Shown: piece after piece, positions 6,049-8,270 of the stretch
Layout: every line of letters begins with the position of its first letter
How positions within the stretch are numbered: position 1 is the stretch's first letter
NCBI RefSeq assembly: GCF_002939305.1
Contig: NZ_MVDI01000017.1
Location: forward strand, 1 to 46,368
Direction: 5' to 3'
Length of the DNA: 46,368 nt
From: Chroococcidiopsis sp. TS-821
GTDB taxonomy: Bacteria > Cyanobacteriota > Cyanobacteriia > Cyanobacteriales > Chroococcidiopsidaceae
Program-made: the position numbers and the translations under genes
The notes under the pieces: generated by a model
What the model saw: the letters and a program-made list of their open reading frames with translations, nothing else
The model's database searches: none
Told to the model about the DNA's origin: nothing

Positions 6049-7233
6049 TTAAGCTTTTTGATCGAGACGCAAGGCTTGCTCTAAAGCTAGTTTTTCTTTC
6101 GCTCTACGTGCATAAGGTTGTAGCTTCGTTGAACTCCACCCTGTCAAAATACTCAAATCTTCAATACTGATTCCTTTAACCAACATTTCAACGCACCACG
6201 TTTGTTGTGCTTGCTCAATTACCGGAACTTTTCCTTCTGGCGTAATTAGTTCTTTAGTTAACTCTTGCCAACGCGCTTTTATTTCTTGCTCAGTTATTGG
6301 CATTCCGCTGTCATTTACAAACAAGGCAGAAGAATTGTCTTTACGGCTTTTGAGCCATTGTGTTAAGGGATTGCGAGTATAAGAACCGTAGCGCTTGCCC
6401 ATAATCCATTGATTAACAGGAACTTGTCTGACTGCACCTTGCGTAATTTGTAACAAGTGTTGATGAGGATCGCTGATTTGGTGGCTGCGCTCTAAACGAG
6501 TAATGTCTAGGGGTGATAAACCTGTGGCAAATAAAACATAAACAAGTGCATAATCGCGTAACCCTGATTTTTTAGCTTGTTGCAGAATTGCATGCACTAA
6601 ATTTGCAGGTAGATCTATTACATTTTCTGTTGAAGTTGTAGAAACTATATTTTCTCCTAAAAATAGTTTGACTAAGTCATTCAAAAACTCTTCTCGATCA
6701 TTTAATTCATTTGTTTCAGTCGCCAATTCAATAATTGCGTAACCTAATAAAATATAGTTCAGTAAGCTTGCAAGTTTTTCGACGGGTAACTGACTGCGTA
6801 ACTGTTCGCGCTGCATCACAGTTGCAAGATATTCGGCAACGTCGCGACTGATTTGATTGATGTATTTGCCAATGATGCGGCGATTTTCTACGGGATATTG
6901 CTGTGCTTCTCCTAAAATAGATAGCACTAATTCGGGAAATTGCGCGATCGCCGTTAAGCGATTGCTTGCATACCATTTAATTGCTTGCGCCGTAGTGTGC
7001 GTTTGCTGGGCTTGCTGGCGCAAGATTTCCCCTAACTCTTGAAACACTGCTGACTCGGAAATGACTGCAAGCAGTAAACCGTGCTTATTACCAAAATGGC
7101 GAAATAGCGTCACTTCATTAACTTGAGCTAACTCAGCAACGGCTTTTGTTGTCGTTTCGGTAACTCCCTGAGTCGCAAATAACTCAATTGCTGCATTAAT
7201 CAATTTTTGTCGAGTTGAAATTTGAGTAGGCAT
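6049..7233 (-). CDS. TetR-family regulator fused to a degenerate tyrosine-recombinase domain
   Basis: The 394-residue protein (numbered from the ATG at 7233; a TTG five codons earlier is the alternative) is about twice the usual TetR length. Residues 5-52 are a TetR HTH (TTKAVAELAQVNEVTLFRHF), followed by an all-helical ligand/dimer domain to about 195. Residues about 200-385 follow the phage-integrase catalytic fold: RDYALVYVLFATGLSPLDIT, then VPVNQWI, LTQWLKS, LFVNDSGMPIT and ISIEDLSILTGWSST. The first catalytic Arg is Ser (S240), the HxLR motif is missing and the GH histidine is Trp (W366), although a Tyr (Y374) remains, so recombinase activity is unlikely. It is divergent from desC and probably represses it through the palindromes at 7279 and 7322. 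Recognition of the second domain is from pattern, not search. Confidence 0.75.
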   Translation of the reverse strand: MPTQISTRQKLINAAIELFATQGVTETTTKAVAELAQVNEVTLFRHFGNKHGLLLAVISESAVFQELGEILRQQAQQTHTTAQAIKWYASNRLTAIAQFPELVLSILGEAQQYPVENRRIIGKYINQISRDVAEYLATVMQREQLRSQLPVEKLASLLNYILLGYAIIELATETNELNDREEFLNDLVKLFLGENIVSTTSTENVIDLPANLVHAILQQAKKSGLRDYALVYVLFATGLSPLDITRLERSHQISDPHQHLLQITQGAVRQVPVNQWIMGKRYGSYTRNPLTQWLKSRKDNSSALFVNDSGMPITEQEIKARWQELTKELITPEGKVPVIEQAQQTWCVEMLVKGISIEDLSILTGWSSTKLQPYARRAKEKLALEQALRLDQKA

Positions 7234-7278
7234 ACAGGCTAGTTTCAATCAGCGGGAGTACTGCGTTAGTTATAACTG

Positions 7279-7295
7279 TGCAAGTAACACTTGCA
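7279..7295. promoter_or_regulatory. Palindromic operator candidate 1 (TetR-like/desC)
   Basis: TGCAAGTAACACTTGCA is a perfect inverted repeat with 7-bp arms and a 3-bp centre. A near-identical site lies 43 bp away, about four helical turns, in the same intergenic region. The size, symmetry and position between a TetR gene and its divergent neighbour are typical of TetR operators. Confidence 0.7.
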
Positions 7296-7321
7296 TTTCT
7301 AGCGCAAAGTTGTTAAGGTAA

Positions 7322-7338
7322 TGTAAGTAGCACTTGCA
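7322..7338. promoter_or_regulatory. Palindromic operator candidate 2 (TetR-like/desC)
   Basis: TGTAAGTAGCACTTGCA matches site 1 at 15 of 17 positions, and one arm base breaks perfect symmetry. The desC start codon is 90 bp further on. Together the two sites give the consensus TGYAAGTARCACTTGCA. Confidence 0.65.
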
Positions 7339-7427: not shown

Positions 7428-8270
7428 ATGACGACATCAGCTGTCAACGCTGAGGGTAAGCAGCGGCTTACTCTAAGTTGGCTCAACGTGGCATTTTTTA
7501 GTACATTTCATGCGGTAGCGATCGCCGGATTTTGGCATTTTTCGTGGTCTGCATTAGGAGTGACGCTATTCCTCCACTGGTTGTTTGGCAGTATTGGTAT
7601 CTGTTTAGGCTACCACAGGCTTTTAAGTCACCGCAGCTTGCAGGTGTCACCTAAGTGGGTAGAATACGCGATCGCAACTTGCGGTGCGTTAGCCATCCAA
7701 GGAGGACCAATTTTTTGGGTAGCGACGCATCGACTGCACCACGCGCATACAGAAGATAACGACAAAGATCCTTACTCTTCAGGGCGTGGCTTTTGGTGGA
7801 GTCATATGCTGTGGATTTTCTATCCCCGCCCAGAGTTTTTTGAATATAGCAAATACAAACGATTCGCTCCCGATCTTGCCCGCGATCCCTACTACAATTG
7901 GTTAGACCGCAATTTTCTCCTCTTACAAATTCCGCTTGGCGTCCTATTATATCTTTGCGGTGGATGGTCGTTTGTCATCTATGGAATTTTCGTTCGTTCA
8001 GTCATCTTGTGGCACACGACTTGGTTAATTAACTCAGCAACGCATTGGCGCGGTTATCAAAACTATCAAGTCGATGACAACTCGCGTAACCTTTGGTGGG
8101 CAGCAATTTTAACGTACGGCGAAGGTTGGCATAATAACCATCACGCTTACCCTAATGTGGCAAAAGCAGGACGGCGCTGGTGGGAAATTGATATGACTTG
8201 GTGGGCGATCAAACTCTTGCAAACTGCGGGTTTAGCTAAAAAAATTGTCATGCCTACAACTAAAGTTTGA
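7428..8270 (+). CDS. desC: Acyl-lipid delta-9 fatty acid desaturase
   Basis: The 280-residue membrane enzyme introduces the first double bond into stearoyl chains of membrane lipids, taking electrons from ferredoxin. The three histidine boxes of the di-iron site are present: H63-RLLS-H68, H101-RLHH and H235-NNHH, with hydrophobic segments around 20-60 and 160-195. Length and box spacing fit cyanobacterial DesC, which underlies low-temperature membrane adaptation. The ATG at 7428 follows a short aagga ribosome-binding site. Its promoter region contains the two palindromes attributed to the divergent TetR-like regulator, so expression may respond to a lipid-related ligand (inference). Confidence 0.92.
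   Translation: MTTSAVNAEGKQRLTLSWLNVAFFSTFHAVAIAGFWHFSWSALGVTLFLHWLFGSIGICLGYHRLLSHRSLQVSPKWVEYAIATCGALAIQGGPIFWVATHRLHHAHTEDNDKDPYSSGRGFWWSHMLWIFYPRPEFFEYSKYKRFAPDLARDPYYNWLDRNFLLLQIPLGVLLYLCGGWSFVIYGIFVRSVILWHTTWLINSATHWRGYQNYQVDDNSRNLWWAAILTYGEGWHNNHHAYPNVAKAGRRWWEIDMTWWAIKLLQTAGLAKKIVMPTTKV

Follow-up and report, generated by a model that had tools for sequence, protein, structure and literature searches.

A TetR-type regulator joined to an apparently inactive tyrosine-recombinase domain, beside a cyanobacterial desC-like gene with two predicted operators

In TetR repressors the second domain usually carries a ligand pocket, and a recombinase synapse is built from four catalytic domains. 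How desaturase genes are controlled has a bearing on tolerance to cold and light. Among the TetR proteins of cyanobacteria, PfsR (sll1392) of Synechocystis is a 203 aa protein of iron homeostasis that binds its own promoter, according to the excerpted text of its description (PMC4092027). In animals, tyrosine recombinases of Crypton elements have been domesticated as DUF3504 in KCTD1, ZMYM2-4, QRICH1 and WOC. According to the excerpted text of this work, dead tyrosine recombinases in regulators are already described for animals (PMC3212892). Among the top matches in the mostly open-access literature we found no bacterial description of a TetR repressor joined to a dead recombinase. The excerpted part of a review of prokaryotic mobile-element co-option (PMC8987985) contains no mention of a TetR-recombinase fusion, and among the matches listed for the motif or for the Anabaena desaturase gene the regulator characterized below is not mentioned.

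We analysed a 46,368-nucleotide stretch of DNA from Chroococcidiopsis sp. TS-821 (contig NZ_MVDI01000017.1, positions 1 to 46,368), called the window in the following. On its minus strand an open reading frame at 6049-7233 encodes a regulator of 394 aa with its ATG at 7233; an in-frame TTG at 7248 provides an alternative start, for which the frame spans 6049-7248. An earlier sequence-only reading had proposed a TetR regulator fused to a decayed recombinase at this place, and its coordinates as well as its TetR assignment held up. The TetR half (residues 1-195, 6649-7233, minus strand) contains a helix-turn-helix (HTH) at residues 11-57 that matches Pfam TetR_N with an E-value of 2.3e-13 (50.1 bits versus a gathering cut-off of 24), and TetR_N was found in 42/42 family members. 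The second domain is helical in the AlphaFold2 model, with helices from residue 50 to 192. The best solved fold match of the TetR half was 1vi0 (Foldseek TMt 0.79), closely followed by B. subtilis FadR (3whb), at an identity of only 17% to either of them. Modelling the whole regulator from 42 aligned sequences gave a mean pLDDT of 85.4 and a pTM of just 0.51, such that the model provides no interdomain geometry. The pLDDT fell below 50 at residues 195-202, i.e. the joint between the two halves is flexible in the model. A split gene or a frameshift artefact was ruled out, since 80 relatives read through in one frame without a stop. Orthology with PfsR was ruled out by the length of that protein.

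Another regulator with an unusual partner region was seen in the window at 839-1507. It is encoded on the minus strand between the ferritin-domain (Dps-like) genes at 210-752 and 1694-2185, has 222 aa and combines HTH_3 with a subsequent weak GrpE-like region (E 1.2e-5, just under the cut-off).

For the C-terminal half of the fused regulator (residues 204-394, 6052-6624, minus strand) profile and structure comparisons returned the catalytic fold of tyrosine recombinases, as the sequence-only reading had anticipated. Pfam Phage_integrase matched residues 210-376 with an E-value of 7e-10, above the gathering cut-off, and was found with E < 0.01 in 37/42 family members. Modelled alone from 63 sequences, the C-terminal half reached a pLDDT of 95.7 and a pTM of 0.91. 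A Foldseek search with this model provided 60 PDB chains at E 0.001, and 50/50 among the matches listed were tyrosine recombinases as assigned by title or well-known entry. The TM-scores by query length ranged from 0.49 to 0.76 across these 50 matches, with XerA at the top (E 8e-9, 0.74-0.76). Profile comparison with the XerC-like structure 4a8e (E 4e-9) and an integrase match in PHROGs (E 6e-6) agreed with this assignment; PADLOC gave no match. The N-terminal core-binding domain of tyrosine recombinases is absent from the protein, and the TetR half occupies its place.

The catalytic positions were mapped by aligning profiles with the own genome's integrases and with the solved 4a8e. Of the residues that we take to be catalytic in recombinases, the first Arg corresponds to S240, the Lys to about Q265, the His and the Arg of the HxxR motif to E340 and Q343, the GH position to W366 and the nucleophile to Y374; among the catalytic residues only this Tyr is kept. 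The proposed loss of the active site was thus borne out for S240 and the HxxR residues, together with the retention of Y374. W366, which had been counted as a further loss, is no loss by itself, because active recombinases, Cre and Flp among them, can also have Trp at the H/W position. The substitutions extend over the whole set of 121 distinct C-terminal halves (identical rows merged): Position 240 is Ser in 102 and Arg in 3 of them, position 265 is Lys in 7, and position 343 is Gln in 95 and Arg in 20. Arg at both Arg positions was found in 3/121, one of which carries Phe instead of Tyr. At the HxxR His position a residue other than His stands in the 118/121 C-terminal halves whose residue was listed, and position 374 is Tyr in 116 and Phe in 5. 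With the Arg, Lys and HxxR residues replaced in this manner, the whole fusion family should no longer be able to catalyse recombination in the usual way, while the Tyr stays.

Other positions of the C-terminal half are strictly kept. R269, Q341, T345 and W346 are invariant in 121/121 sequences, the latter three being family-specific residues at the site of the old HxxR motif. In the first 81 sequences aligned N274, Q275, W276, G279, G283, P289 and W322 were invariant, as were R269 and K298, and 16 invariant columns were counted among 63 C-terminal halves. In addition, 109/121 sequences share a 12-residue loop between VPxNQ and NPL of the type GKRYGSYTxNPL, about 9 residues of which are an insertion relative to 4a8e. 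For 10 chosen pairs of relatives dN/dS was 0.03-0.18 in the TetR half and 0.07-0.35 in the C-terminal half, which had the higher value in 7/10 pairs. In 121/130 loci the C-terminal half is more identical to the window protein than the TetR half is. As judged from these comparisons, the C-terminal half is constrained by purifying selection, without decay. Its net charge has a median of +2 (range -12 to +7, n=121) and is +5 in the window protein, compared to +8, +10 and +12 for three integrase domains from the same genome; this small control speaks mildly against DNA binding as the main role. Stand-alone homologues of the C-terminal half were found in 0 of 292 genomes of the phylum at E 1e-5.

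The own genome contains a second integrase-like open reading frame on contig C6 (L244:2146-2946, minus strand; 266 aa) that matches Pfam at E 7e-16 over profile positions 2-135 of 172. Its C-terminal motif region appears degenerate by eye, and it lies convergent with an intact-looking integrase at L244:997-2073.

Divergent from the regulator, the plus strand at 7428-8270 encodes a desC-like membrane fatty-acid desaturase of 280 aa, the presumed target. It matches Pfam FA_desaturase with an E-value of 1e-20, and three more desC-like genes were found in the own genome. The NCBIfam model DesA_fam_desat matched at 97.8 bits, far under its cut-off of 400. The His boxes HRLLSHRSL, THRLHH, HTTWLINSATH and GEGWHNNHHA are present; compared by eye, they are near to those in the excerpted text of PMC4390868 without being identical, which together with excerpts of PMC2593844 served as desaturase background.

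Between the two genes lie two near-identical 17-bp palindromes, as the sequence-only reading had noted. The predicted operator O1, TGCAAGTAACACTTGCA, is found at 7279-7295 and the predicted operator O2, TGTAAGTAGCACTTGCA, at 7322-7338 (both without strand), corresponding to a start-to-start distance of 43 bp. Taken by itself, the window shows a modest excess: Three matches with up to 3 mismatches were obtained, one of them being O1 on the other strand, versus a shuffled mean of 0.67, and 3/100 shuffles of the window reached three matches. It is the conservation that lifts the palindromes far beyond chance, as 156 sites were found in 17,833 bp of divergent intergenic DNA from 80 related loci versus 3 sites in 653,576 bp elsewhere (zero-mismatch pattern; two sites in 76 loci, one in 4). 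The two sites differ systematically at position 3, which is C in 61/81 O1 and T in 74/81 O2; this difference may set differing affinities or serve the overlapping desC start.

A promoter search revealed no standard -35/-10 promoter between the regulator and desC. Fifteen bp after O1, on the plus strand at 7311-7319, the window contains TGTTAAGGT, which resembles an extended -10 element (TGnTAnnnT) of desC, and TGnTAnnnT was found at this distance in 76/81 loci. O1 followed by YGNTANNNT at this same distance occurred in 22/292 genomes, all of them carriers of the regulator, while the control gave 0. From this conservation alone, across loci that are related to one another, we infer a desC promoter at TGnTAnnnT, for which O1 would cover about -47 to -31 and O2 the transcription start. 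That the palindromes bracket the conserved element suggests occlusion of the desC promoter.

The distance between the sites had been taken as about four helical turns, suitable for looped repression. This agrees with the 43 bp of the window but fails for the family: Among 81 loci the spacing was 43 bp in 2, 46 in 26, 47 in 43 and 48-58 in 10, i.e. 46-47 bp in 69/81 with a range of 43-58, and 85 bp in one further genome (G170). Since the usual spacing is other than four helical turns, phased looping is unsupported.

Strict palindromes are rare beyond the divergon. The own genome contains a single one outside (contig C3, L139:4065-4081), which is at chance level because the reversed control also gives one match. 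It sits inside an open reading frame that looks by eye like a pentapeptide-repeat protein, and the same 17 bases occur in G005. For 24 of the 31 other sample genomes with an orthologue, sites outside the divergon were searched; 16 of the 24 had none and 8 had one to four. Given this rarity, the regulator is probably a one-target switch, and a wide regulon is unsupported. The highest number among the 24, four strict sites outside the divergon, was counted in the nearest relative, G005, on L250 plus three other contigs.

The layout is conserved well beyond the window. Relatives were obtained by a single scan of genome contigs, and the best 80 of 180 were kept, which are cyanobacteria as judged by title; that all 80 were full-length and in one frame is partly a matter of this selection of the best-scoring. 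Desaturase and palindromes played no part in the choice, and a divergent desaturase together with two palindromes was found in 81/81 loci (the window and the 80 relatives), confirming the expectation that the palindromes are kept upstream of orthologous gene pairs. Cultured strains with the gene pair include Fischerella sp. PCC 9431, F. muscicola PCC 7414 and F. thermalis PCC 7521. Another 50/50 loci with both halves had a divergent desC and two sites at 15/17 positions at least; some of these are of the same species as the 80, one has its halves in different frames (L198) and one an in-frame TGA (L108). Altogether, all 131 loci with the C-terminal half keep O2.

The sequence-only reading had also proposed a census of the domain pair in cyanobacteria, for which 292 genomes were sampled evenly across the phylum, 139 from the window's class and 153 from other classes. 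The whole regulator matched 34 of these genomes at E 1e-20, four of them (G011, G177, G255 and G262) by a TetR-only frame. The C-terminal half alone matched 30 genomes, all among the 34, with frames of 399-464 aa. The palindrome pair occurred in 28/292 genomes, namely in 27/30 genomes with the fusion and in 1/262 others, and the reversed control gave 0/292. Restricted to the window's class, the comparison is 27/30 versus 1/109. The three fusion genomes missed by the pair search (G123, G170 and G195) have a site with one mismatch or, in G170, the wide spacing. The sole genome with the pair but without the fusion is G011, which has the TetR half alone.

Broken copies of the regulator were seen in L108 (G123; in-frame stop), L198 (G297; two frames) and L212/L237 (G328; broken frame). 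Some lineages may therefore be able to do without the regulator, though the breaks could also stem from assembly errors.

Regulators that consist of the TetR half alone are informative about which part reads the palindromes. In G011 a single contig carries a TetR-only regulator of 236 aa from its ATG, a divergent desC and both sites at a spacing of 47 bp, with a TGnTAnnnT-like element 16 bp after O1; in the family of this genome 26/36 genomes match the regulator at E 1e-15. In the order of G177, 8/9 genomes are TetR-only at the locus and the remaining one (G327) has the fusion and the palindrome pair. The eight TetR-only loci of this order keep O1 at 14/14 fixed positions, followed after 15 bp by CGNTANNNT, in which CG takes the place of TG. 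O2 is at chance in six of them, all from one genus (8-9/14; shuffled mean 8.2), and is kept in the other two (13/14 and 14/14); in one of these the frame of the regulator is broken (L212 of G328, excluded from the tree below but counted for O1 and O2). TetR-only orthologues thus have O1 in 9/9 and O2 in 3/9 loci. In two further genomes, G309 and G322, the TetR half, desC and both sites are likewise present, but the contig ends there before the locus is complete, so that neither genome enters these counts. Based on G011 and on the mostly TetR-only order that keeps O1, it is most likely the TetR half that reads the palindromes. O2 can persist without the C-terminal half and, as far as these loci tell, the recombinase domain is not needed for the upkeep of the paired sites. 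The association of the C-terminal half with O2 (131/131 versus 3/9) is suggestive only, because the six losses of O2 lie in one genus and may be a single event. Palindromes serving as recombination sites were ruled out, since the same sites occur with the TetR-only regulator of G011.

To address the polarity of the fusion, a quick tree was built from 125 TetR halves, of which 114 are fused to the C-terminal half, 8 are TetR-only and 3 belong to the outgroup (identical rows merged). It placed G011 among four fused rows at 98 percent SH-aLRT, to one of which it is 78 percent identical, and this placement favours loss of the C-terminal half in G011. In AU tests on a thinned set of 65 rows, from which near-identical fused rows and one outgroup row were dropped, a clade of all fused rows without G011 also passed (p 0.47), as did holding the TetR-only order outside (p 0.785). 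The TetR-only order sits on a long branch, and its TetR-only state may be either ancestral or derived.

With its HTH and helical second domain the regulator has the make-up of the TetR family, and considering the conserved palindromes and the TetR-only loci it likely binds the palindromes and represses from them. With a probability of about 0.55, we favour a local repressor switch that controls a delta-9-type desaturase and probably has no other target, in which the C-terminal half is an oligomerising contact module that locks repressors on the two operators. Each palindrome would be bound by a TetR dimer through its N-terminal half. With O1 over the -35 region and O2 over the desC start, occupancy would shut desC off, and O1, which adjoins the regulator gene, could additionally provide autorepression. 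The C-terminal half, presumably unable to recombine by the usual chemistry, would serve protein-protein contact: The four C-terminal halves of two dimers, as many as a recombinase synapse contains, could clamp the O1 and O2 complexes together and yield cooperative repression. Such bridging would be allowed at any helical phase owing to the joint that is flexible in the model. Judging weakly from fold similarity, a lipid-state ligand might release the TetR half, as in FadR. A bolder and less likely version is that a recombinase synapse has turned into a repressor lock: Four dead domains would assemble as in a recombinase tetramer, though without catalysis, and keep the desC promoter closed until, perhaps, a ligand in the old active site releases it.

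Other roles of the C-terminal half were weighed against this contact module. It could be a second DNA-binding module that covers the spacer or the flanks like a recombinase on its half-site, which would give a longer footprint and no bridging. Many of its best fold matches are DNA-bound recombinases, the geometry from O1 to TGnTAnnnT is fixed and neither R269 nor K298 varies among the first 81 sequences, all in agreement with DNA contacts. The same geometry, with CG for TG, is however also that of the eight TetR-only loci in the order of G177, such that the promoter explains it, and the net charge is below that of the three integrase domains in the small control; we rate this reading as rather unlikely. 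Alternatively, the old active-site pocket could act as a sensor, with Q341, T345, W346, R269 and the GKRYGSY loop forming the binding site for a small ligand or a partner protein. Invariant, family-specific residues where HxxR once stood, together with a conserved loop inserted relative to 4a8e, would suit such a pocket. A TetR protein would, however, usually hold a ligand pocket in its second domain already, and the ligand is hypothetical, which makes a sensor quite unlikely.

As an inert passenger under slow loss the C-terminal half would leave an ordinary TetR repressor as the switch. The shared locus layout of TetR-only orthologues, the loss favoured by the tree for G011 and the higher dN/dS of the C-terminal half in 7/10 close pairs all fit a passenger. 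Its dN/dS still remains at 0.07-0.35, though, and neither the 16 invariant columns nor its higher identity to the window protein in 121/130 loci are what a passenger predicts, so that we consider it improbable. A recombinase or nuclease that still works, always or conditionally, via the remaining Tyr, with the palindromes as recombination sites, would account for the Tyr kept in 116/121 sequences, though Phe replaces it in 5. It is hardly credible in view of Ser for Arg I in 102/121, a Lys in only 7/121, both Arg in only 3/121 and the His lacking wherever the HxxR residue was listed (118/121), besides the palindromes found with the TetR-only regulator of G011.

This regulator and its operator pair are candidates for the local control of a cyanobacterial desC gene. 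Because the neighbour gene is conserved, two operator-like sites are present and natural orthologues without the domain exist, the contribution of a retired recombinase fold to a regulator is directly testable here. In its HTH, its helical second domain and its palindromes beside a divergent lipid gene the regulator is alike to the TetR repressors 1vi0 and FadR, to which it adds a recombinase domain of 190 residues; PfsR, likewise a cyanobacterial TetR protein, is without this half in the excerpted text (PMC4092027). With the Xer/integrase recombinases (XerA 5hxy, XerC-like 4a8e, Tn1549 Int 6emy and Cre) it has in common the fold of the catalytic domain and the Tyr at the nucleophile position, whereas the active-site Arg, Lys, His and Arg and the core-binding domain are gone and a TetR half stands in front. 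DUF3504 proteins, following the excerpt of PMC3212892, are likewise catalytically dead recombinases, many of them in transcription regulators with another DNA-binding domain. The animal domains have lost the Tyr and the second Arg, while the cyanobacterial TetR fusion keeps the Tyr; in further contrast to DUF3504, the regulator is bacterial and comes with a conserved neighbour gene and operator-like sites.
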